64,000 bases of DNA. Origin: Nesterenkonia muleiensis. GTDB taxonomy: Bacteria; Actinomycetota; Actinomycetes; Actinomycetales; Micrococcaceae. A model generated the notes under the pieces. It ran no database searches, was not told where the DNA came from, and was given only the letters and a program-made list of their open reading frames with translations. This document shows positions 7,064 through 64,000 of the stretch, piece after piece (positions within the stretch are counted from its first letter, which is position 1; each line of letters starts with the position of its first letter). The stretch covers positions 1 through 64,000 of the forward strand of contig NZ_QWLD01000040.1 in the NCBI RefSeq assembly GCF_003600155.1, written 5' to 3'. Position numbers and translations under genes: made by a program.

Positions 7064-8211
7064 AGCTCGATCTCCGGACCGGTGAACCGTGCCGAGGGCC
7101 GGATGATTTTGGAGTCACGTGCCTGTTCCAGGATGTGCGCGGTCCACCCCACCACTCGGCCGACGGCAAAAGTCGCGGTGAACATCTCCGGTGGAATCCC
7201 GCACCGCTCCATGAGGACCGATGCATAGAACTCAAGATTGGTGTGCAGGGCCCGGCCGGGCTTGAGCTCGGTCAGCACCTGTTGGGCGGCCTGTTCGAAC
7301 TCCAGAGCCGCCTGGACCCGGGGACCACCCAAGTCGGTGACGATCTGCTTGAGCATCTGCGACCGCGGGTCCACGGTCCGGTACACCGGATGGCCGAAAC
7401 CCATGATCCGGTGACCTGCAGAGATTTCTGCTCGCAACCAGCCTTCGACGCCGCCCTCGGCACTTTCTGCCTGATCAAGAGCGTCAAGCGCCCTGGACGG
7501 GGCACCACCGTGAAGCGGGCCGGTCAGCGACCCCAGTGCGCCCGCCAGGCAGGAGGCGAGGTCGGCACCGGTCGAGGCGATGACCCGGGCGGTGAAGGTG
7601 GAGGCATTGAAGCCGTGCTCCATGGCCGCCACCAGGTAGGACGTCAGTGCCCGTTCACAGGCAGCATCAGGTGCCGCCCCCGTGATCCGATGCAGATATC
7701 GATCCACCAGACCGTCCCCTGAGGCAGGCGCGCCGGCGTCGTCGTCCTTGCTGATCCGGTGGAACGAAGCGAGCAGATCCGAGGTCAGCGCAATGAGCAC
7801 ATCGGCATTCTCCCGTCGCCGTTGATCGTCAAGATCGTACAGCGGCTGCATACCGAGTTCCTGGGCAATCAGCGGCAGTGCGGCCTTCAGCCCGCTCATG
7901 GCATCGAGCGAGCCTGCTGTGGAGGCTGTGGTGACTGCTTGTGTCACCTCGCGGACCAGCCCGTGGTGGTTGTGCTGGGTAGTTGCGGCGAACTGGCGCA
8001 GCGCCTCGCCCTCGGGCGGTCTCCCGTGGACAAGCAGCTGCCAGGCCTGCTCGAACGTGGCGGTCTGGGCAACGTCGATGGCCGACCGGTCCCGGTACTG
8101 GTAGTAGCCCTGGTGACCGCGAACCTGGCTGATGGCGGTCTCGGTGACAGCGACGTTGGTCAAACCCCTTGGGACATCGATCAGGGTGTCATCCATGCGC
8201 TCGGCGCTCAT
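7060..8211 (-). CDS. Citrate synthase / 2-methylcitrate synthase family enzyme
   Basis: 383 aa citrate-synthase-fold enzyme condensing an acyl-CoA with oxaloacetate. The oxaloacetate/CoA-site histidines are present in GPLHGGAPSRA and MGFGHPVYRT, and the C-terminus has the usual RPSARFTGP. The residue equivalent to the catalytic Asp (normally PNVDFY) reads TNLEFY, that is Glu, a variant worth checking in other actinobacterial paralogues. Start ATG 8211 has AAAGGAGCG 6-7 nt upstream. It is divergent from the HTH-citrate synthase at 8298, and the 86-nt gap holds an operator-like repeat. A third paralogue, prpC, lies at 32.4 kb, so this one may serve central metabolism. Confidence 0.85.
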   Translation of the reverse strand: MSAERMDDTLIDVPRGLTNVAVTETAISQVRGHQGYYQYRDRSAIDVAQTATFEQAWQLLVHGRPPEGEALRQFAATTQHNHHGLVREVTQAVTTASTAGSLDAMSGLKAALPLIAQELGMQPLYDLDDQRRRENADVLIALTSDLLASFHRISKDDDAGAPASGDGLVDRYLHRITGAAPDAACERALTSYLVAAMEHGFNASTFTARVIASTGADLASCLAGALGSLTGPLHGGAPSRALDALDQAESAEGGVEGWLRAEISAGHRIMGFGHPVYRTVDPRSQMLKQIVTDLGGPRVQAALEFEQAAQQVLTELKPGRALHTNLEFYASVLMERCGIPPEMFTATFAVGRVVGWTAHILEQARDSKIIRPSARFTGPEIEL

Positions 8212-8276
8212 GGTTCGCTCCTTTTTCATCGGGCTGATACGTGGTCGATCCATGGTCTAATCATGAGCAGAAATGA

Positions 8277-8296
8277 ATCAATGTTGATTGGATCAA
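8277..8296. promoter_or_regulatory. Triple half-site operator between the divergent citrate synthase genes
   Basis: Three alternating half-sites ATCAA (8277-8281), TTGAT (8284-8288) and ATCAA (8292-8296) form two overlapping inverted repeats with 2- and 3-nt spacers. The last half-site ends one base before the GTG at 8298, so a bound protein would cover the translation start and probable transcription start of the HTH-citrate synthase. Autoregulation by that protein is inference. Confidence 0.5.
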
Positions 8297-8297
8297 T

Positions 8298-9515
8298 GTG
8301 AACCCTGCTGATGAACCCCGCCTGCTGACCTCAGACGAGGTCGCCGGACGCCTCGGCATCAAGGTCGAGACGCTCTATGCCTATGTATCGCGTGGGCAGC
8401 TCGCTCGCGTGCGCAGCCCGGAAGGGTCTCGGTTCCGTCCGCTCGACGTCGAGGAGTTCGCCGCCAGGCGCAAGCCCAGGTCAGTGTTCCGCCGAGGGTC
8501 GGTGGCCGCCAGACCGCTGGTGATGCTCGATACAGATCTGGCGATGGTCGAAGACGATGAGCTGTATCTGCGCGGCCAGCGGGCAAGCGATCTGGTGAAG
8601 AGTCGTCCAGTCGAGCGTGTCGCGGCGTGGATCTGGTCCGGTGACTGGGAGACGGCCTTGTCACCGCCTACGGCGAAGGACCTTGCTCAGACTATGGCGT
8701 TTCTGCAGAGCCTGCCGGCCGGGGCCAGTCGTATCGACCAGCTGAACCTGTCGGCTGCTGGCCTCGGCATGAGCGACCCGTGGCGGGAGGAGATCTCGCC
8801 AGAGGCCCTGCAACGTGCTGGTGCGCGGTTTCTGCTGGGTGTGCCGCGCCTTCTGCTCGGTGGTCATCTCCCGCCGGAGGAGCATACGGTCGCAGAGGTG
8901 CTGTGGCGGGCACTTTCACCTCACCCGCCTCAGCCACAGCACATCCGCGCCCTCAATGCCGCCCTCGTGTTGACCATCGATCATGACCTGGCCATCTCCA
9001 CCCTGTCGGGGCGCATCGCAGCCTCCGGGCGCGCCAGCGGCTACTCGGTGATCACCAGCGCGCTAGGCGCGTTCGCCTCTCCTCTGCACGGAAATGCCAG
9101 CGTATCCGCCGCCCTGCTGGTCCGTTCGGTGCTTGATGGGCACTCCGCCGAGCGCGCTCTCGGCGAGGCGATCAGCACAACGGGCGCACGCCTTCCAGGT
9201 TTCGGCCACTTCCTCTACGCCGACGGCGATTCGCGAGCGCGAACACTGCTGCAGTTCGTCCCCGGCCTGCCTCGTGGGTCTGAGGTTTCTGCCGCCGTCG
9301 ATGCACTGACCGAGGAGGTGGCCCAACGTAGCCAGCTGAGGCCCAATGTCGACTTGGCGCTGGCTGCGGTGACCGTCGCTGGAGACATGAACGACAGCGA
9401 CGGGTCTCTTCTTTTCGGACTGGGCCGCTCAGTGGGGTGGATCGCGCACGCCATCTCCGAATACGCCGAGAAACCCCTGAGGCTGCGGCCCCAAGGGCGC
9501 TATACCGGGCCATGA
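8298..9515 (+). CDS. Citrate synthase-like protein with N-terminal helix-turn-helix domain
   Basis: 405 aa. Residues 9-57 form an excisionase/MerR-like DNA-binding domain (LLTSDEVAGRLGIKVETLYAYVSRG with a following wing). The remainder is a citrate synthase fold: SPLHGNASVSAAL (His kept, second Gly replaced by Asn), PGFGHFLYADGD, RPNVDLALAAV with the catalytic Asp, and GRYTGP at the C-terminus. Such HTH-citrate synthase proteins occur in actinobacteria beside a normal citrate synthase gene, as here in divergent orientation. The fusion suggests an enzyme or enzyme-derived metabolite sensor controlling transcription. GTG 8298 sits directly behind the operator repeat with no ribosome binding site, so the mRNA may be leaderless. 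Confidence 0.82.
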   Translation: MNPADEPRLLTSDEVAGRLGIKVETLYAYVSRGQLARVRSPEGSRFRPLDVEEFAARRKPRSVFRRGSVAARPLVMLDTDLAMVEDDELYLRGQRASDLVKSRPVERVAAWIWSGDWETALSPPTAKDLAQTMAFLQSLPAGASRIDQLNLSAAGLGMSDPWREEISPEALQRAGARFLLGVPRLLLGGHLPPEEHTVAEVLWRALSPHPPQPQHIRALNAALVLTIDHDLAISTLSGRIAASGRASGYSVITSALGAFASPLHGNASVSAALLVRSVLDGHSAERALGEAISTTGARLPGFGHFLYADGDSRARTLLQFVPGLPRGSEVSAAVDALTEEVAQRSQLRPNVDLALAAVTVAGDMNDSDGSLLFGLGRSVGWIAHAISEYAEKPLRLRPQGRYTGP

Positions 9516-9615
9516 GTCGGGGGTGGGATGCCTTGAGATCGGTGATCTCGTGCACACGGTGCCTCATGGCAGGCCGGAGGGTGGGCCGAAGCGAGGCTTC
9601 GCTGGATAGAAATCC

Positions 9616-10041
9616 CTACTGTGCTGCGTCGTATTCGTCTCGGTGTTCTTGAATGTCATCCATGTGATCTTGTGCCCAGGTTCTGAGCTGGCGGGTGGTC
9701 TGGTACAGAGAGAGGCCGAGGTCGGTGAGCTCATAGTCCACGGTGACCGGCACTGTGGGGGTCACCGTGCGGGTGATCAGGCCGTCACGCTCCAAGGAGC
9801 GCAGCGTCTGGGTGAGCATCTTCTGGCTGACCCCGGCGAGCTGACGAGCCAGTTCTGAGTAGCGCATCGAGGTGGCCACATCGGGGTGGCCTGTGCCGTC
9901 ACCTCCGAGCGCGCACAGGACCAGCACGACCCATCTGTCCGAGAGCCTGTCAAGCAGCCGGCGGCTCGGGCATACCGCCAGAAACGCGTTGTACTCGGTC
10001 TTCGCCTGGGCCCGTTTCCGGGCCGCGCTCATCGTGGCCAT
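9616..10041 (-). CDS. HxlR family transcriptional regulator
   Basis: 141 aa winged-helix regulator. The HxlR core is clear: CPSRRLLDRLSDRWVVLVLCAL with the initial Cys, then MRYSELARQLAGVSQKMLTQTLRSLERDGLITR and YELTDLGLSLYQTTRQLRTWAQDH. Family members usually repress or activate a divergent oxidoreductase gene in response to electrophiles or oxidants through that Cys. Here the divergent neighbour is an aldo/keto reductase that is broken, so the regulator may have lost its target. The start at 10041 (ATG) is one of several clustered starts (10050, 10047, 10041, 10032); GAAAG lies just upstream. Confidence 0.85.
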   Translation of the reverse strand: MATMSAARKRAQAKTEYNAFLAVCPSRRLLDRLSDRWVVLVLCALGGDGTGHPDVATSMRYSELARQLAGVSQKMLTQTLRSLERDGLITRTVTPTVPVTVDYELTDLGLSLYQTTRQLRTWAQDHMDDIQEHRDEYDAAQ

Positions 10042-10098
10042 GACCATCACCTTTCGACTGGACGGGGGTAACGCACCTCAAAGTGCCTACTTCCCCTA

Positions 10099-10113
10099 GG
10101 AGAGTTGCTCTCC
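10099..10113. promoter_or_regulatory. Palindrome in the HxlR-aldo/keto reductase intergenic region
   Basis: GGAGAG and CTCTCC form a perfect inverted repeat with a TTG spacer, midway between the divergent HxlR gene and the aldo/keto reductase remnant. Position and symmetry suit a dimeric winged-helix repressor; no experimental support is implied. Confidence 0.35.
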
Positions 10114-10174
10114 AATGCTGATTCATGGGCGCTCAGAACGCCACCCTTTAATCGGCATCATGAAAGGCAACACG

Positions 10175-10754
10175 ATGAGTACTGTTTCTTCCCCGCTTCC
10201 CGGCGGCACCTGGACCCTGGGTGATCAGACGGTGACCCGTTTCGGATACGGGGCCATGCAGCTCGCGGGTCCCTGGGCATGGGGCGCCGGCTGACCACAG
10301 CGCAGCGATCGCGGTGCTGCGAGAAGCAGCCGAGCAAGGCATCACCCACATAGACACCAGTGATGCCTACGGGCCCCTCATCACGAAGCAACTGTTCCGA
10401 GAAGCACTGCACCCCTACCCGGAGTCTGTGTTCATCGCCACCAAGGTCGGCGCGACCCGTGACGCCGAAGGTGGCTGGCCCACGGCCCGTCGGCCAGAGG
10501 ATCTGCGCCAGCAGGTTCACCAGAACCTCGAATCCCTGGGGGTGGAGACTGTCGATCTGGTGAACATGCGCATGGGCGTCGCCGCCGGCCCTGGCATGGC
10601 TGCTGCAGCGTTCCCCGAACATCCGCTGATCTCCGGCACCTCGAAAGTGGCGCATCTGCGGGACAACATCAGAGGTGCGGGCATCTCGATGTCAGCTCAG
10701 GACGTGGCCGAGCTGGACGCCCTTGAACAGAACATCACCGCCACTGTCTCGTGA
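10175..10754 (+). pseudogene. Aldo/keto reductase, frameshifted and internally deleted
   Basis: The N-terminal part starts with ATG 10175 and reads MSTVSSPLPGGTWTLGDQ...RFGYGAMQLAGPWAWGAG before a stop at 10292-10294. The sequence continues in another frame as AAIAVLREAAEQGITHIDTSDAYGP, the normal aldo/keto reductase continuation with the Asp and Tyr of the active site, so one frameshift lies near 10280-10290. Around 10570 the protein jumps from VDLVNMRMG to ISGTSKVAHLRDNI, which is the family's C-terminal NADPH-binding part. Roughly 100 residues of barrel are missing, including the catalytic Lys and His. Two independent lesions make this a decayed gene. It was probably the target of the divergent HxlR regulator. 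Confidence 0.8.
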
Positions 10755-10866
10755 AGCCAGTGCAAGAGCGTGGACACTCTGGGAGGCTCTGAACGGCTAA
10801 AGGGCGTCATGTGCTGAGATCAGCCTCTTCTTGTCGTGGACGGGGGATCGGCGTAGTGTCAGTGAG

Positions 10867-11112
10867 GTGAAACGTTTCTTTGATTCCATTCGAAGCCTTG
10901 GCTTTCGCCGTGGCCCGCGGCGTCTTCTCGGGGGTATCGCGGGAGGCATCGCCGAGGGGTTGGGCATCAACGTGTGGCTGACTCGGCTCCTGGTCCTCCT
11001 GTCCTTCCTGCTCCCGGTGGTCGGCGTGGGACTCTACTTTCTGGTCTGGGCTCTCACACCGTGGCAGGACGAAAGCATCCCACTGGAACGGGCTCTGAGC
11101 AGCCCACGTTAG
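10867..11112 (+). CDS. PspC domain membrane protein
   Basis: 81 aa. The PspC domain fills most of the protein: RRLLGGIAGGIAEGLGINVWLTRLL, then one hydrophobic segment (LLVLLSFLLPVVGVGLYFLVW) and a short tail. PspC proteins are inner-membrane parts of phage-shock or envelope-stress signalling; short stand-alone versions are common in actinobacteria. GTG 10867 (VKRFFDSIRS) is preferred over an in-frame TTG at 10831 because AGTGAGG precedes it. It stands alone between the aldo/keto reductase remnant and the XRE-cupin gene. Confidence 0.8.
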   Translation: MKRFFDSIRSLGFRRGPRRLLGGIAGGIAEGLGINVWLTRLLVLLSFLLPVVGVGLYFLVWALTPWQDESIPLERALSSPR

Positions 11113-30428: not shown

Positions 30429-32447
30429 ATGAGTAGCGGGCAGCGGTGGACGATGACTGCGGCGTTGGGCGCCAGCGTGATCGCGGTCTGCTACGGCTTC
30501 GGCCGCTATGCCTACGGGCTGTTCGTTCCGCAGTTCGCAGTGGCCTTCGACCTCAACGCCACCGGCGTGGGTGTCCTCGGCGGTGTGTCGACCTTGGGGT
30601 ACACCCTGGGATTGCTTGCCGCGCCCAGACTCGTCGGTCCATCCGCGCGAATGGCGGCAATCGGGGCAGGTGGGTGCGCGGCCATCGGACTAGTGACCAT
30701 GAGCGTGTCCGATCTTCTTGGTGTTTTCGCCTGCGGCTTGTTGATCGCTGGCGCCAGCGCCGGTCTCGTCTCGCCCGCAGTGGCGGAGCTGATCAGTCAC
30801 TCCGTGAGACCTGGTGCGCGCGCTCAGGCGCAGACATGGGCCAACACCGGTACCAGTTTCGGATTGGCCGCATCTGCCTTCACCCCGGTGTTGGTGTTCG
30901 GGTGGCGGGAGACATGGCTGGGGTTCGGGCTCATCGCTTTGGCGATCACCGTTGTCGCCCATCTGGCTCTGCCCCGCCCAGCCCGCAGAAGGATGAGCAA
31001 TCAGCCTGCCAGGCCCTTGCGGCGGGCAGGACTCACGCCGCTGCTGGTGAACTCCGTCCTGTTGGGGTTGACCAGCGCGCCGTACTGGAATTTCTCCGTC
31101 GAACGAATGGCGCAAGCCGGCCTCAGCGGTCACTTCTCAGCCTGGTTCTGGCTGACCATCGGCATCGCAGGCCCGCTCGGGGGAGTGGCAGGCGGACTCT
31201 GCCACCGATGCGGACTGACCCGGGTCAACCTCGCGATCTGGACTGCCTGGGCGATCAGTCTGGCGCTCCTGGCGCTACCGTCTGCTGGCCCGGTTGTCTC
31301 GCTGATCTCCGCAGCACTCTTCGGTGCGGCCTTCATGGCCCTGACCGGAATCTGCATCCTGTGGGCCGCGCTGCTTTTCACCGAGTCACCGGCACGAGGG
31401 GTCACCCTGTCCTTCCTCGGCCTGGGAGCAGGCCAGACCCTGGGCTCACCGGCTGCCGGCGCCCTGGCAGACCACATCGGCCTCCCGGCGGTCTTCGCCA
31501 TCACCGCGGTCTTCAGCCTCACCGCCTGGCACCAGCTGCACAGGCGAGTGCAGGTCAACGATCTCGGAGGCCGCCTGCACCGTGAGCATTGCCAGGCCGG
31601 GCACCTGATCAGGACAGGGGGCCGGTATACGCTCGATCACATGCCTGATCCGCAGCATTTCGAAGCACATGCCGAGACCTATCACCGTGCCAGACCACCG
31701 TATCCGGGTGCACTGTGGGCTCGGCTGAGCGATATGGGGTTGCTGGGTGAGGATGTTCGCGTCATTGAGTTCGGCGCAGGTTCTGGCCAGGCGACCGGCC
31801 CCATGCTGCGAGCCGGGGCCTCGGTCACGGCCGTTGAGCCTGGTCCTGCCTTTGCGAGCCTTCTCCGAGACCGCTACCCCGAGGTGACGGTGCGCTGTGA
31901 AAAAGCAGAGTCAGCCCCGTTGCTGCCGGCCTCCTACGACCTTGCTGTCGCCGCCACGGCGGTGCACTGGTTAGATCTCGGTACATTGCTGCCGCGACTT
32001 CATCAGACATTGGCGCCCGGAGGCCACTTTGCTGTCTGGTGGACAGTCTTCGGCGATCCTTCGGCAGCACCTACGCCGTTCCGAAAACAGGTGGGGGCGA
32101 TCATTGCCCGCCGTGGAAGCGGGCCACCGAGGCGTGGGTCGGACCATGACATCACCAAAGCTCGGGTCCACCGGCTCACTGAGAGCGGGCACTTCTCCGT
32201 TGCCCACACTGAACAGTTCCGATGGACGATCGACCTCCGGACGGATCAGATCCGTGACCTCTTCACCACGTTCAGCGACTGGAACGCGGACGAAGTTGAT
32301 GAAGCAGCTCAGGCGGTTGATGACCTCGGCGGGCGAGTGGTCGAGCACTATGTGACACCGCTGATCGTGCTCAACCGTAGCGGGAGAGACGATGTTGAGG
32401 TGCCGGTGATCCCGTCTCAGAGGTGGCGTTCTTCGGGGCCGTTGTAA
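30429..32447 (+). CDS. YbfB/YjiJ-like MFS transporter fused in frame to a SAM methyltransferase
   Basis: 672 codons without a stop. Residues 1 to about 375 form a 12-TM MFS transporter whose start (YGFGRYAYGLFVPQF) is characteristic of the YbfB/YjiJ group. A hydrophilic linker (about 376-404) follows. From Met405 (ATG 31641) the protein is a class I methyltransferase with MPDPQHFEAHAETYHRARPP, SAM motif VIEFGAGSGQATGPML and AVAATAVHWLDL. The methyltransferase has its own promoter-like TATACG 9 nt before ATG 31641, so it may also, or only, be made separately, with the MFS having lost its stop. The 3' end overlaps prpC by 31 nt in convergent orientation. A divergent TetR gene probably regulates it. 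Confidence 0.75.
   Translation: MSSGQRWTMTAALGASVIAVCYGFGRYAYGLFVPQFAVAFDLNATGVGVLGGVSTLGYTLGLLAAPRLVGPSARMAAIGAGGCAAIGLVTMSVSDLLGVFACGLLIAGASAGLVSPAVAELISHSVRPGARAQAQTWANTGTSFGLAASAFTPVLVFGWRETWLGFGLIALAITVVAHLALPRPARRRMSNQPARPLRRAGLTPLLVNSVLLGLTSAPYWNFSVERMAQAGLSGHFSAWFWLTIGIAGPLGGVAGGLCHRCGLTRVNLAIWTAWAISLALLALPSAGPVVSLISAALFGAAFMALTGICILWAALLFTESPARGVTLSFLGLGAGQTLGSPAAGALADHIGLPAVFAITAVFSLTAWHQLHRRVQVNDLGGRLHREHCQAGHLIRTGGRYTLDHMPDPQHFEAHAETYHRARPPYPGALWARLSDMGLLGEDVRVIEFGAGSGQATGPMLRAGASVTAVEPGPAFASLLRDRYPEVTVRCEKAESAPLLPASYDLAVAATAVHWLDLGTLLPRLHQTLAPGGHFAVWWTVFGDPSAAPTPFRKQVGAIIARRGSGPPRRGSDHDITKARVHRLTESGHFSVAHTEQFRWTIDLRTDQIRDLFTTFSDWNADEVDEAAQAVDDLGGRVVEHYVTPLIVLNRSGRDDVEVPVIPSQRWRSSGPL
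31626..31631 (+). promoter_or_regulatory. -10-like TATACG before the methyltransferase part
   Basis: TATACG lies 9 nt upstream of the internal ATG 31641, where methyltransferase homology starts. If active it would give a leaderless mRNA for a separate 268-aa methyltransferase. Confidence 0.3.
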
Positions 32448-59492: not shown

Positions 59493-60932
59493 TCATCGCT
59501 CGACCTGGAACACCTCAAGAAGATAGTCCTCCGACGTCTCGTCGCGGTGAAGGGCCCGCAGACTGGGTTCACCAGCCAGGACTTCGTGCGTCCCGGCACC
59601 ACCAGCAGGCCACCCCGCCACAGAATGTGTCCAATGCACAGCCACCAGATGTGCCTCTGGTGCGGCTCTGGCGCACAGGCCGCTGACGATGGGAGCCAAT
59701 TCATGGTGGGGAATGAAGTAGAGGACCTCGGAGAGCACGATGAGATCTGCGCCGAGGGGCCCAAGGTCATTATTGAGCGCTGAGAGAGCACGGTCTTCGA
59801 TGCTCACGGTCCCAGGCCGTACCGTCCCGGCGGTTTCAAGGTCGAGGATCCTTGCGCGCGCTGTGGCAGCGGCGCGCTCAACCGGTTCCCAGCCAATGAC
59901 CCGATCAGCGCGCTGGGCCAGATCAGCAGTCAGTACACCGATGGAGCTGCCGGCTTCGAAGCAGAGTCTGTACCGATCTCTCGGCAGCGCCTGCAGGGTA
60001 GCCCGCCGTTTGGCCTTCTCGTATTCTGAGGTCTCCAGATCCCAAGGGTCTTGAGCTTCCGCGTAGAGCCTCTGCAAATGGTCAAGACCATCGACGGGGC
60101 ACGGGGAGTGCGACGCAGCGCTCAGCGAGGTGGAGAGAAGGAGCTCTGGAGCCTTCAGCAGGCGTTCGATGACGTGCTCTGGCATGACCGGTCCGTTCGC
60201 TTCGTCTGGCCAGCGGGCAACCTGAGAGGTGAAGCAGTGGGCCGCCTGCCGCTTCCGCTGAAGTCTGAGAGCGTCGTCGGGCCCTACAGCGGCAGCGGAG
60301 ATGGGGAACTGCCCGCTGTCAGGGGAGTCCCAGTGCAGTGCCCACAGGGGAAACTCCAGAAAGGTCAGGGACTCACCTTCGCCAACCACTGACTGTGCTG
60401 CCTCTGCTGCACAGCGTCCTACCGCTTCGTGGTCCGGGTGCCCGTCACCGCGCCAGTGCGTCACCACAGTGGGGAGAGCCCCGCTGTGATCGGCTCTGAC
60501 ACGGTGAAGAACATGTTCCAGCTCGCCGACGATGGCACCGGTATGGGATTCCACACCTCCGTCGGGGAACCCAAGGAAGATAGGCGCTTCGGTGCCCAGG
60601 ATGCGGGCGGCAGCCACGGACTCAGCCTGCCGCAGCGCGGAGAGCTCCAGGGGGACCACGGCCGGGTCATGGGCGTGGGACTGCTCGCCTCCGCTGACGA
60701 TCACCACCGTGACTGAGCTGCCTCGCGTGGTCAGCGCATGGACCAAGCCGCCCGGGCCCAGGCATTCATCATCCGGGTGAGCGACCACCAGGAGCACATG
60801 CTCTATATTCCCGAGGTCCAGCCGCGGCAGCGGATGCGCTGCTCTTGTCCAAGCCCGTGTGGGGGTTCCTGGTTGATCCAGGGGGACTTCGGCGAAAAGA
60901 TCCCGATTTCCGGTGCGGTGACCGCTGATCAT
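59493..60932 (-). CDS. Bifunctional PIG-L family deacetylase / NodS-like methyltransferase
   Basis: 479 aa with two domains. Residues about 40-270 form a PIG-L (LmbE) Zn-dependent N-deacetylase: AHPDDE at 51-56 gives the metal-binding His, Asp and Asp, and GDGHPDHEAV (162-171) supplies the third ligand. Residues about 285-479 are a methyltransferase resembling NodS: LYAEAQDPWDLETSEYEKAK, SAM motif CFEAGSSIGVLTADLA and DLIVLSEVLYFI. The domain pair suggests deacetylation of an amino sugar followed by N-methylation, as NodB and NodS do in separate proteins; this is inference. The ATG overlaps the preceding gene's stop by 4 nt. Confidence 0.85.
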   Translation of the reverse strand: MISGHRTGNRDLFAEVPLDQPGTPTRAWTRAAHPLPRLDLGNIEHVLLVVAHPDDECLGPGGLVHALTTRGSSVTVVIVSGGEQSHAHDPAVVPLELSALRQAESVAAARILGTEAPIFLGFPDGGVESHTGAIVGELEHVLHRVRADHSGALPTVVTHWRGDGHPDHEAVGRCAAEAAQSVVGEGESLTFLEFPLWALHWDSPDSGQFPISAAAVGPDDALRLQRKRQAAHCFTSQVARWPDEANGPVMPEHVIERLLKAPELLLSTSLSAASHSPCPVDGLDHLQRLYAEAQDPWDLETSEYEKAKRRATLQALPRDRYRLCFEAGSSIGVLTADLAQRADRVIGWEPVERAAATARARILDLETAGTVRPGTVSIEDRALSALNNDLGPLGADLIVLSEVLYFIPHHELAPIVSGLCARAAPEAHLVAVHWTHSVAGWPAGGAGTHEVLAGEPSLRALHRDETSEDYLLEVFQVER

Positions 60933-61885
60933 CGTCTTCGCCCGTCTTCTGTGGCCAATACGTAGCGTGCCAATTGGGCATCGTCTGCCTCTGCATGGCT
61001 CTGCCGGATATAGACCTGTAGGTCCTGGACGAGACGGGCGGCGTCATGGTCCTCAGCCAGGGGTGAGGCTCCCAGCGCCTTGCCGAAGCGCCTGATGACA
61101 TCAGCGCAGCCACGTTCCACCACGGACCTGAGACTGAGGGCTCGGCGCCTGGCCGCTGGGAGGTTCCCGGGATTGGCATCGATTTCCTGGGCTGCTGATG
61201 TCAGGGCGTTGGTGATGGTCTCGTCCCATGCCAGACAGGCACCCAGATGCGCCAGAGTGTGCGGATCGTCCCGACGCCGGGCTTTCTCACAGAACATGTC
61301 GATCAGACCTTGCGCCCCGCCCCACCAGCAGCAGGCCACTCCGAGTCCGCCGTGCCAGAATCCCGGACGGTCCAGATAACTGTCCGGGTCACCGGCAGGC
61401 ACAGCTGAGACACCGTCGAAGTGCATGGGAGCCGTCTCGGTCTCCGCCATGCCGCTGGAGGCCCAAGTCTTCTCTCCAGCGGTGACTCCGGCCTGCCGCA
61501 AGTCCACTGAGAACAACCGCGAACGTCCTGAGTGTTGAGCGGTGACCAGAGCATGGGTGGCGAACCCTGCTGCCGAACACCACAGCTTGGTGCCACGCAG
61601 CTTCCATACGCCGCCGTGCTGCACCGCTTCCAGCACCGGAGTGGGCGGCTCGGCAGCCCATACTCCCCACAACGATGCGCGATCGGGGCAGTCCTCCACC
61701 TCAAGGTCTGCGCAGATAGCAGAAGCATCGGCGTGGGCCTCCACCAGGCGGGCAGCCGTGAGGTCTTTACGCCCCAGCTCTATCAGCTCACGCCACCGCC
61801 GGCCAGTATCGCCCTTTCCCGGCAGCGGGAGCTCAGCCTGTCCCTGGGCGATCAAGGTCCGTGCGACGTCGATCGCCCGGCTCAC
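60929..61885 (-). CDS. Acyl-CoA dehydrogenase-like protein
   Basis: 318 aa, shorter than the usual ~380. The middle beta domain is recognisable (WGVWAAEPPTPVLEA, VWKLRGTKLWCSAAGFATHALVTA), and the C-terminal helical domain has GLGVACCWWGGAQGLIDMF. The N-terminal helical domain is reduced and no clear catalytic Glu is seen in the expected C-terminal region. It may thus be an oxidoreductase using a carrier-bound or sugar-linked substrate, or a non-catalytic homologue. GTG 61885 overlaps the glycosyltransferase stop (GTGA). Middle gene of a tightly coupled three-gene operon. Confidence 0.78.
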   Translation of the reverse strand: MSRAIDVARTLIAQGQAELPLPGKGDTGRRWRELIELGRKDLTAARLVEAHADASAICADLEVEDCPDRASLWGVWAAEPPTPVLEAVQHGGVWKLRGTKLWCSAAGFATHALVTAQHSGRSRLFSVDLRQAGVTAGEKTWASSGMAETETAPMHFDGVSAVPAGDPDSYLDRPGFWHGGLGVACCWWGGAQGLIDMFCEKARRRDDPHTLAHLGACLAWDETITNALTSAAQEIDANPGNLPAARRRALSLRSVVERGCADVIRRFGKALGASPLAEDHDAARLVQDLQVYIRQSHAEADDAQLARYVLATEDGRRR

Positions 61886-62637
61886 AGCGCAGCCTCAGTG
61901 GTGTTGAGATAGTGCGCGAATCCGGCAGCCACCCGGGACTGGGCGCGAGCGGAGGTCACCACCGGCAGGCTGAGGCATTCATCCACCTGGAAGCCTGCGC
62001 AGTGAAGCCTGTCCACCATGTCCTGGTCCTCTCCGACCTCCAGTGGCGCGAAACCGCCCACAGCCCGGTACGCAGCCGCCGAGACTCCCAGATTCGCGCC
62101 ATGGACATGTCCACGACTTTCGGCATAGTTCTGTTCATACCGGCGCCGCAGCGCCGGCGCCCGCAATGACCAGTCCTGGACCTTCACCCTGCCGGCAATA
62201 GCGTCCGCTCCAGCCCAACGGTGTCTCAGGTGTTCGACTACCCACTCAGCGGGAACCACAGAATCGGCATCGGTGCACATCAGCAGAACATTGTCATCGC
62301 CGGCCTCGAGGCTTTCCTCCCGGTAGCGCAGCAGCCCTGCGGCACGAGCGGCTCCGGCTGAGCCGGACCGAGTGACGAGCACCTCATCCGCCAGCTCTGC
62401 GGCAATGGCCGCTGTGCGGTCGGTGCACAGGTCAGCGATGACCGTGATGTGTGCTTCGAGGTTCCGTGGCTGCCACGAGCCGATCTCCACCCCGCAGCCC
62501 AGACTGTCTGGGGCCATGGGAAGAGCAAGCAGATCTCGAGCGAATCGCAGAGCGCTGCGCACTGCGTGCAGCGCGGAAGGCAAGAGGTGCTCCTCATTGC
62601 GGGCCGGAATCAAAACCCGAACATGCTCGCTGTGCAT
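61882..62637 (-). CDS. Family 2 glycosyltransferase
   Basis: 251 aa GT-A fold without membrane segments. Motifs: VLIPARNEEHLLPSALHAV at the start, ITVIADLCTDRTAAIA, the metal-binding LMCTDADSVVPAEWVVEHL and, later, GGFAPLEVGEDQDMVDRLHCAG with the ED catalytic pair. GT2 enzymes transfer sugars from nucleotide donors to lipid, protein or sugar acceptors. It is the first gene of the operon leading to the acyl-CoA-dehydrogenase-like and PIG-L/methyltransferase genes; each junction is a 4-nt overlap. Confidence 0.88.
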   Translation of the reverse strand: MHSEHVRVLIPARNEEHLLPSALHAVRSALRFARDLLALPMAPDSLGCGVEIGSWQPRNLEAHITVIADLCTDRTAAIAAELADEVLVTRSGSAGAARAAGLLRYREESLEAGDDNVLLMCTDADSVVPAEWVVEHLRHRWAGADAIAGRVKVQDWSLRAPALRRRYEQNYAESRGHVHGANLGVSAAAYRAVGGFAPLEVGEDQDMVDRLHCAGFQVDECLSLPVVTSARAQSRVAAGFAHYLNTTEAAL

Positions 62638-62803: not shown

Positions 62804-64000
62804 TCACTCACCAGCGGAGGGTTTCCCCAGAGCCTCCCGGCGCTTCTTCGAGGCTCTGCCGCTGATCTTGGCCAGATTCCGTGCAGAGGACACCAGTGAA
62901 AAACCTTCGCGACGCCGGCTGGCGGCCCGGATCCAGGTGGCTGTTCCTATCCCCGCCACCAGCACACCGGGCACTGAGACCCCGGCGATCTTCGGCGGGG
63001 TGTCCCGTGATATCAGCTGCGCCGAAGACATCAGAGCAGCGGCGCTGATGAGCCCGTCCACTATGTTGTCTGTGAGCCGGTCAGGGTCGTGGACGCTGAA
63101 GTTCACCGTCACTGTGCCCTGCCGGACACCTTTGATGAGCTCCGCCAGGTCGTCCGGGAGAGTCTTCACCAGCCGCCGCCATCTGAGACTGTTGGAAGCC
63201 ACTTCCCGGGCGATGCGGCGGGGATCCAGATAGGACATCATGATACGTCGGATATAGGGCCTCATCAGCTCTTCGATGTTGAGATCCACTCCCACTGCGT
63301 TGCTCAGCCCCTGCAGCTGAAGCAACACGCGGATCAGCAGCATGAAGTCCCCCGGGAGCACCAGCCCATAATGATGGAGAAGATCCATCGCCTGGCCCAC
63401 CAGAGCGGGGATATCGATCTGCCCGACCCCGACAGAAATATGGCGGTCGAACCAGCCGCCGAGGTCGGCGCGCAGCTGAGCGATATCCGTTGAGGGTGGC
63501 GGGTTGGCGATGTCGATCAAGGCACTGGCAAATGCCTCGGCATCGCGAAAGCCCAGCGCCAGCACTATTCGCTCCATCTGCTCTCGCCGAGCCGGGACGA
63601 AACGGCCAATGTCACCAAAGTCAAGAAGCGCCAGCCTCTGACCCGGCAGCACCATGAGATTCGCAGGCTGGGGGTCCGCGTGGAAGGCTCCGTGCTCGAA
63701 GATCATCTCAAAGTAGACGGATACGACCTTGTTCGTCAGCTCCTCCACCTCCCAGCCGCTTCCCGCGAGGGCCTTCGCACTGCGAAGGGGCGAGCCTTCT
63801 ACTTTGGTCATGGTCAGCACGCGTCCGCCGCACAGTTCTTCATACGGTTCGGGCACGTAGAGATCCTCGTGATGAGATAATTTCTCCCGGAAAGTCCGCA
63901 GGTTCGCCATCTCTACACGCATGTCCACAGCGTCTCTGAGCATCGTGGAGAACTCTTGGGCGATCTGGACCGGACGGTACTGCTGAGCCCCGGGGTCATT
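62804..64000 (-). CDS. AarF/UbiB (ABC1) family atypical kinase, 3' part
   Basis: The frame is open from the right edge (first codons read NDPGAQQYRPVQIAQEFSTML), so the 5' part, with the start and the KxGQ and Ala-rich loop motifs, is outside. Visible: VPEPYEELCGGRVLTMTKVEG, HADPQPANLMVLPGQRLALLDFGDIG, which holds the catalytic and metal-binding Asp residues, and a long C-terminal helical region with a hydrophobic stretch (VSVPGVLVAGIGTATWI) near the end. UbiB-family proteins support isoprenoid quinone synthesis or lipid homeostasis through ATPase activity. The 398 visible codons fit a protein of roughly 550 aa. Confidence 0.9.
   Translation of the reverse strand, partial: NDPGAQQYRPVQIAQEFSTMLRDAVDMRVEMANLRTFREKLSHHEDLYVPEPYEELCGGRVLTMTKVEGSPLRSAKALAGSGWEVEELTNKVVSVYFEMIFEHGAFHADPQPANLMVLPGQRLALLDFGDIGRFVPARREQMERIVLALGFRDAEAFASALIDIANPPPSTDIAQLRADLGGWFDRHISVGVGQIDIPALVGQAMDLLHHYGLVLPGDFMLLIRVLLQLQGLSNAVGVDLNIEELMRPYIRRIMMSYLDPRRIAREVASNSLRWRRLVKTLPDDLAELIKGVRQGTVTVNFSVHDPDRLTDNIVDGLISAAALMSSAQLISRDTPPKIAGVSVPGVLVAGIGTATWIRAASRRREGFSLVSSARNLAKISGRASKKRREALGKPSAGE

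Follow-up and report, generated by a model that had tools for sequence, protein, structure and literature searches.

A recurrent glycosyltransferase, N-deacetylase and NodS-like methyltransferase module in Nesterenkonia muleiensis and other bacteria, with a predicted N-methylated amino-sugar product

In rhizobia, the backbone of Nod factors is made by nodC-nodB-nodS. Here we analyse a three-gene operon in a 64,000-nucleotide stretch of Nesterenkonia muleiensis (contig NZ_QWLD01000040.1, positions 1 to 64,000; hereafter the window) which, like nodC-nodB-nodS, brings together as one set a GT2 glycosyltransferase, an N-deacetylase and a NodS-family methyltransferase, the last two being fused in a single protein; in one lineage of related cassettes the deacetylase is also of the CE4 family. 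Unlike the rhizobial genes, the window and most of the other loci use a PIG-L (CE14) deacetylase, the glycosyltransferase has 251 amino acids (aa), a protein with the acyl-CoA dehydrogenase (ACAD) fold is added, no nodulation context is seen and the methyltransferase falls short of the NodS equivalog cut-off. By analogy, the module would work like the Nod-factor backbone pathway supplemented with a flavoprotein-like enzyme.

Based on these comparisons we propose, with moderate confidence, that the operon encodes a GT2 to N-deacetylase to N-methyltransferase pathway leading to an N-methylated amino-sugar glycoside, an accessory trait that is probably linked to stress. The glycosyltransferase would attach an N-acetylated amino sugar, most likely N-acetylglucosamine (GlcNAc) from UDP-GlcNAc, to an acceptor; the PIG-L half would take off the acetyl group, the fused NodS-like half would methylate the liberated amine, and the ACAD-fold protein may oxidise the product or a precursor, so that the end product would be an N-methylated, perhaps oxygenated, amino-sugar glycoside. 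These substrates and this order of steps are what we infer from the families and linkage described below. The cassette, which is also found on plasmids, would be accessory and would probably help cells to survive osmotic, oxidative or drying stress, not to nodulate. No description of the module was found among the papers listed by searches of the open-licence full-text literature.

The methyltransferase and the exchangeable deacetylase

Against solved structures, the profile of the methyltransferase family scored 97.2 bits with NodS and 48.9 bits with the next match, a phosphomethylethanolamine N-methyltransferase, and PF05401 (NodS) was matched at 0.001 by all 30 family members examined. The window half matches PDB 4isc (72 bits, residues 304-475). 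This entry, which is called 'Methyltransferase' and has no function in its molecule name, is the methyltransferase of the cassette in a near relative of one Pseudomonas locus (L113; 247.6 bits), and the existence of a solved structure makes the question directly testable. With the NodS equivalog NF041650 the window sequence reaches 28.5 bits, against a cut-off of 300. Weaker methyltransferase matches occur in seven of 299 Pseudomonadota genomes, in frames of 753 to 1,218 aa (L225-L231, e.g. L226:1-2907). A profile search recovered the methyltransferase domain in all seven of these large proteins and a glycosyltransferase domain at 31 bits or more in four; the two that were scanned with Pfam both combine GT2, NodS and polysaccharide deacetylase (CE4) domains in one chain. 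Unlike the cassette, these proteins come from genomes that give no ACAD match at 1e-20, they contain CE4 and not PIG-L, and their methyltransferase is more distant (92-109 bits).

The fused protein of the window carries HPDDE and DGHPDH, and the residues of both motifs (HPDDE and D-x-H-x-D-H) are invariant in 30 rows of the PIG-L family. The nearest named solved relative is diacetylchitobiose deacetylase (CE14), which is not fused to a methyltransferase; it scores 79.5 bits with the PIG-L family profile, with the uncharacterised TT1542 close behind (77.3 bits), and 38 bits with the window half. Since the PIG-L domain also matches the BshB1, BshB2 and MshB models, the operon might be thought to make a thiol of the mycothiol/bacillithiol kind or an antibiotic-type metabolite. 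These matches are all far under the cut-offs (BshB1 54.4 versus 182.5, BshB2 45.6 versus 195.25, MshB 28.8 versus 224.35), the profile is closer to diacetylchitobiose deacetylase, and a separate, full Mca gene (419.8 bits) is present in the genome; we consider this origin quite improbable. An identity of the PIG-L half with Mca itself (28.1 versus 277.15, NCBIfam) is rejected together with that of MshB, and the possibility, raised in the original prediction, that the fused protein acts on mycothiol precursors is not borne out.

The strongest sign of a genuine N-deacetylation step is that the unrelated PIG-L and CE4 families occupy the same slot. A CE4 homologue is found beside the ACAD and methyltransferase genes, with no PIG-L gene within about 1.5 kb of the methyltransferase gene, in 11 Actinomycetota genomes (G041, G053, G058, G065, G076, G109, G130, G152, G163, G184, G195). 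Four of these regions were taken whole (L292-L295): a PF01522 match (83 to 92 bits against a cut-off of 23.1) precedes ACAD, the order is CE4 - ACAD - methyltransferase - Pyr_redox_2 (PF07992) reductase - glycosyltransferase, and the 20 kb of each hold no PIG-L. The Pyr_redox_2-type reductase is present in 10 of the 11 genomes, the contig ending in G184. Among the 40 genomes with a strong methyltransferase, PIG-L adjoins in 24 and CE4 in 11. CE4 was detected neither in the 88 loci L032-L119, nor in L164-L203 (20 cassette regions and 20 controls), nor in the 3.6-kb methyltransferase loci of the seven PIG-L-type Actinomycetota genomes. This replacement strengthens the scheme 'transfer, N-deacetylate, N-methylate' and, together with the single-chain GT2-NodS-CE4 proteins, suggests that the Nod-factor backbone follows a logic that extends beyond symbiosis.

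In Pseudomonas, a second PIG-L gene follows the cassette (L113:13107-13877; also L082, L097, L105, L109, L117 and L119). HPGDE stands in place of HPDDE in all seven, DGN-x-DH in place of DGHPDH in the six inspected, and these motifs make it likely that the product is a pseudoenzyme.

Recurrence and linkage of the four functions

A scan of species genomes with the ACAD-like gene gave at least 446 relatives; the best 80 loci were kept, a choice that biases the sample towards window-like loci. All four functions lie on one strand within 6 kb in 59 of these 80; a laboratory strain with the four genes is Rhodococcus erythropolis NBRC 15567 (L043). Complete cassettes amount to 66 of the 88 loci examined, with three gene orders (GT-ACAD-PIGL-MT in 34, ACAD-PIGL-MT-GT in 31 and PIGL-MT-GT-ACAD in one, GT and MT being the glycosyltransferase and the methyltransferase), and the intergenic gaps are all below 400 bases in 65 of the 66. 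The PIG-L/methyltransferase fusion of the window recurs in five of the 80 loci, three from Nesterenkonia (L040, L041, L079) and two from Brevibacterium (L058, L075). Annotated regions from Comamonas, Acinetobacter and Paracoccus have ACAD, PIG-L, S-adenosylmethionine methyltransferase and glycosyltransferase, in this order, as separate genes, and Legionella lytica has the order PIG-L - methyltransferase - glycosyltransferase - ACAD. The glycosyltransferase is unannotated but detected by profile in the Kitasatospora and Pandoraea regions (in two pieces in Pandoraea), and by annotation no PIG-L gene adjoins the ACAD gene in Cupriavidus. Of 57 plasmid records matching the ACAD-like protein, 54 span at least 80% of the query (tblastn). 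One locus (L071, with an in-frame stop) was dropped and another (L106), in which ACAD is spread over two frames, was left out of the ACAD alignments; the first profiles contained neither the PIG-L of L036, which is diverged, nor one glycosyltransferase of L037.

In one Acinetobacter baumannii record (L038; NZ_CP077849.1), an aminoglycoside resistance gene lies about 4.5 kb beyond the cassette and others lie further on; the record is labelled plasmid, yet it is 3.66 Mb long.

Co-occurrence was assessed in 299 Pseudomonadota genomes (centre genome included) and 198 Actinomycetota genomes (the window's own included), the phylum names being inferred from the centre genomes. The Pseudomonadota sample has ACAD in 22 genomes, the methyltransferase in 28 and the glycosyltransferase in 22; ACAD and glycosyltransferase are common to 21. 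The methyltransferase reaches 120 bits or more in 21 of the 28, every one with ACAD, a line drawn after the scores had been seen; without it, ACAD is present in 21 of the 28. Fisher p values with ACAD are 2e-31 for the 21 strong methyltransferases, 3e-25 for all 28 and 5e-30 for the glycosyltransferase. In Actinomycetota, the methyltransferase occurs in 19 genomes and the glycosyltransferase in 22, with both in 19; a single-sequence search at 1e-5 found ACAD in 26, comprising 16 of the 19 methyltransferase genomes and 10 others, and the remaining three methyltransferase genomes have ACAD by profile. By profile, ACAD lies at most about 1.5 kb from the methyltransferase in 21 of 22 Pseudomonadota loci and 19 of 20 Actinomycetota loci. 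The genes co-occur and co-locate across genomes, so that the homologues are linked and do not stand singly. Markers of the module are present in about 7% of the sampled Pseudomonadota (ACAD, 22/299) and about a tenth of the Actinomycetota (methyltransferase, 19/198); within Nesterenkonia, an ACAD-only search at 1e-20 was positive in 12 of 30 genomes.

By fold, the glycosyltransferase has WrtF, TarS, TarP and heparosan synthase among its neighbours, exopolysaccharide-type models match many family members (EpsD 38 of 43) and more glycosyltransferase genes adjoin the Paracoccus cassette, all of which would suit the addition of an N-methylated branch to a surface polysaccharide or to a polymer of the teichoic type. 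We regard this as unlikely: no flippase or polymerase was recognised among the recurrent neighbour clusters listed, which were read by eye and not all searched by family. The window protein scores 36.3 bits with the GT2 arsenosugar glycosyltransferase model TIGR04283, below its cut-off of 182.

The ACAD-fold enzyme and the stress context

The original prediction likened the three genes to those that build lipo-chitooligosaccharides. The sugar half of this parallel (sugar transfer, N-deacetylation and N-methylation) is supported as a recurrent module by the affinities of the methyltransferase and the deacetylase, the co-location of the genes and the CE4 replacement; the lipid half, i.e. desaturation of an acyl chain and a glycolipid product, is not supported. 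At the position of the canonical catalytic Glu (IYEGT; residue 296, placed by extending the alignment by eye to a shared Asp), 51 ACAD-like sequences have Ser in 33, His in 12 and other residues in six, and none has Glu or Asp. Around the alternative Glu of isovaleryl-CoA dehydrogenase, placed by eye at residues 173-179, Glu is found only in L037 (173) and L084 (177) of the 51. A C-S-G-A motif is almost invariant (C103 50/51, S104 51/51, G105 50/51), the window being the sole member with A105. In the form C-S-G-A/S, with S163 in DszC, the alignment shows this motif to be common to the ACAD-like family and to TdsC, MsuC-like proteins and DszC. The family resembles DszC, TdsC and methanesulfinate monooxygenase in its ACAD fold, in this motif and in a His aligned by eye with H97 of DszC; unlike these monooxygenases, it is about 80 residues shorter and keeps neither H92 nor N129. 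We consider it more likely that the enzyme is a flavin-dependent oxygenase than a fatty-acyl-CoA dehydrogenase. Identification as a catalytic acyl-CoA dehydrogenase, given the canonical Glu in 0/51, or as DszC itself was rejected, as was that of the window operon as a Nod-factor pathway, since it has PIG-L (CE14) in place of a NodB-type (CE4) deacetylase and stays short of the NodS equivalog.

In all seven Pseudomonas loci among the best 80 (L082, L097, L105, L109, L113, L117, L119), treZ, malQ, treY and glgX homologues lie upstream of the cassette. In L113, TreZ, MalQ, TreY and GlgX are over the NCBIfam cut-offs and are preceded by the end of GlgA, and the glgX frame (7771-9930) and the ACAD frame (9902-10930) overlap or abut. 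The same trehalose genes of P. syringae DC3000 (PSPTO3125-3130) were studied as the treY/Z operon (PMC8982409), and our comparison covers these genes, not the cassette. The words 'glycosyltransferase', 'methyltransferase' and 'acyl-CoA' are absent from the main text of that article, and the locus tags PSPTO3131-3135 are not mentioned in the open-licence papers searched. As the Pseudomonas cassette lies behind studied trehalose/alpha-glucan genes, a metabolite that has escaped notice could be hidden in stress physiology that is otherwise well studied. Elsewhere, the cassette is located between otsA and otsB in Comamonas, near both in Acinetobacter, and after otsB and a GH65 gene in Legionella, and catalase, ferritin-like, CsbD, DUF421/YetF and PA2169-type genes are recurrent in the annotated regions.

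Twenty Pseudomonadota cassette regions were compared with 20 control regions of 20 kb taken elsewhere; the controls were drawn from 15 genomes, of which 13 also supplied cassette regions, and three cassette regions were shorter than 20 kb. Trehalose genes were present in 7 cassette and 0 control regions (p = 0.004), other stress genes in 8 and 1 (p = 0.01), and either kind in 13 and 1 (p = 7e-5), or in 12 of 19 cassette regions without L164, the source of the treY/Z seeds. Of the 26 neighbour marker families searched, with seeds taken from named loci, 15 were grouped into a trehalose set and a stress set, and others, such as TPP and LigD (1/20 each), were left out. A bolder version of our proposal would be a new class of stress metabolite: an amino-sugar glycoside, perhaps based on trehalose or a related sugar, that is either fully N-methylated (betaine-like, quaternary) or N-oxygenated and that serves as a protectant or compatible solute. 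In this version, plasmids would have helped to spread the cassette through Actinomycetota and Pseudomonadota, and outside symbiosis it would be the evolutionary sibling of the pathway to the Nod-factor backbone. We hold this to be a rather unlikely outcome.

Several observations weigh against the proposed pathway. The stress markers came from loci that had been inspected beforehand, and their grouping followed a look at the per-family table; moreover, the window neighbours (CDF, ABC transporter, UbiB-like kinase) are outside the trehalose/stress marker set (Pfam). Because these surroundings show none of the markers, we infer the stress role in this organism from its relatives. The window glycosyltransferase exceeds no NCBIfam cut-off. 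At least one part is missing within 6 kb on the strand in 21 of the 80 loci: the glycosyltransferase in seven, PIG-L and methyltransferase in three, methyltransferase and glycosyltransferase in three, the methyltransferase in two, PIG-L in one, and everything but ACAD in five. Some of these loci are near contig ends, and L051, scored without a glycosyltransferase, carries one on the opposite strand. The five ACAD-only loci (L072, L087, L088, L108, L112; one Gordonia, three Mycobacterium and one Lapillicoccus metagenome-assembled genome) indicate that ACAD may have a separate role; no strong cassette-type glycosyltransferase was found elsewhere in the four ACAD-only genomes searched (best 67 bits). 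A good deacetylase is absent beside the strong methyltransferase in five of the 40 genomes (G139, G231, G341, G354, G458), G458 having only a diverged PIG-L of 26 bits. Such gaps, the adjacency of ACAD and methyltransferase, which of all the links varies least (40 of 42 methyltransferase loci), and the unlinked glycosyltransferase in five of 21 Pseudomonadota genomes would fit an ACAD/NodS-like pair acting as the core on a substrate other than an amino sugar, with glycosyltransferase and deacetylase optional. We give this alternative little credence, as the methyltransferase is nearest to NodS and all five genomes have a glycosyltransferase elsewhere, either on a different contig or at a distance of over 400 kb; it is clearly of the cassette type (at least 255 bits) in G440 and G452, while those of G231, G354 and G474 reach just 109-131 bits and may belong to another subfamily.

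For the ACAD-like enzyme, the ACAD fold is present but a dehydrogenase cannot be told from a monooxygenase by fold scores, and the positions of the catalytic H92 of DszC and of its N129 are occupied by Arg (37) or Lys (14) and by Trp (51/51), respectively. In addition, two of the eight annotated regions have an ordinary acyl-CoA dehydrogenase gene close to the cassette, and the one in Paracoccus, beside an electron-transfer flavoprotein-ubiquinone oxidoreductase gene, would suit a dehydrogenase. Together with the joint presence of NodS-like methyltransferase, deacetylase and GT2, these features would agree with a Nod-factor-like glycolipid in which the amino sugar bears an acyl chain that is desaturated by the ACAD-like enzyme. 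The replacement of the canonical Glu in every sequence and the motif common to monooxygenases speak against this reading, and no NodA-type N-acyltransferase is annotated in the cassettes read; the NodA profile PF02474 had no match in the window's assembly, to which the search was confined, but none of 14 controls matched either. We judge the glycolipid to be very unlikely.

A mycobacterial neighbour gene of the endonuclease/exonuclease/phosphatase family (PF03372; L111:11810-12574) belongs to a cluster that recurs in 13 mycobacterial loci, including L087, L108 and L112.

The operon and its neighbours in the window

The original prediction of three genes joined by 4-nt overlaps was confirmed by the coordinates of the open reading frames (ORFs) and by the overlap letters GTGA and ATGA (Table 1). 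Its domain calls also hold, all above the Pfam cut-offs: PF00535 for the GT2 (27.2 bits, cut-off 23.3), the ACAD middle domain PF02770 (41.2, cut-off 33.3), PIG-L PF02585 in the first part of the fused ORF (94.8, cut-off 28.2) and, more modestly, NodS PF05401 in the second (27.9, cut-off 24; residues 286-409). The N-terminal and C-terminal ACAD domains had no Pfam match in the ACAD-like protein. The assignment to an actinobacterium fits as well, the nearest ACAD-like relatives among the matches listed being from Nesterenkonia (62-64% identity).

Table 1. Features of the operon and its upstream neighbour in the window. Profile A9, for the NodS-like methyltransferase family, was built without the window sequence.
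Feature	Position	Strand	Basis
GT2 glycosyltransferase, first operon gene (251 aa, ATG start)	61882..62637	-	ORF; GT-A fold, D-A-D motif
ACAD-fold, flavoprotein-like enzyme without canonical catalytic Glu (318 aa, GTG start)	60929..61885	-	C-S-A-A versus family C-S-G-A
Fused PIG-L (CE14) N-deacetylase and NodS-like S-adenosylmethionine methyltransferase (479 aa, ATG start)	59493..60932	-	PF02585 + PF05401
PIG-L domain within fused protein (residues 47-178)	60399..60794	-	PF02585, 98 bits
NodS-like methyltransferase domain within fused protein	59496..60083	-	Family profile A9, 185.9 bits
4-nt overlap GTGA, GT2/ACAD-like gene	61882..61885	-	
4-nt overlap ATGA, ACAD-like/fused gene	60929..60932	-	
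UbiB/ABC1-type kinase gene, open at window end	62804-63943	-	

The UbiB/ABC1-type kinase gene lies upstream of the operon on the same strand, 166 bases away, and a CDF transporter gene in convergent orientation follows downstream. Elsewhere in the window (30429-32447, + strand), a 672-aa ORF encodes both an MFS transporter domain and a class I methyltransferase domain.

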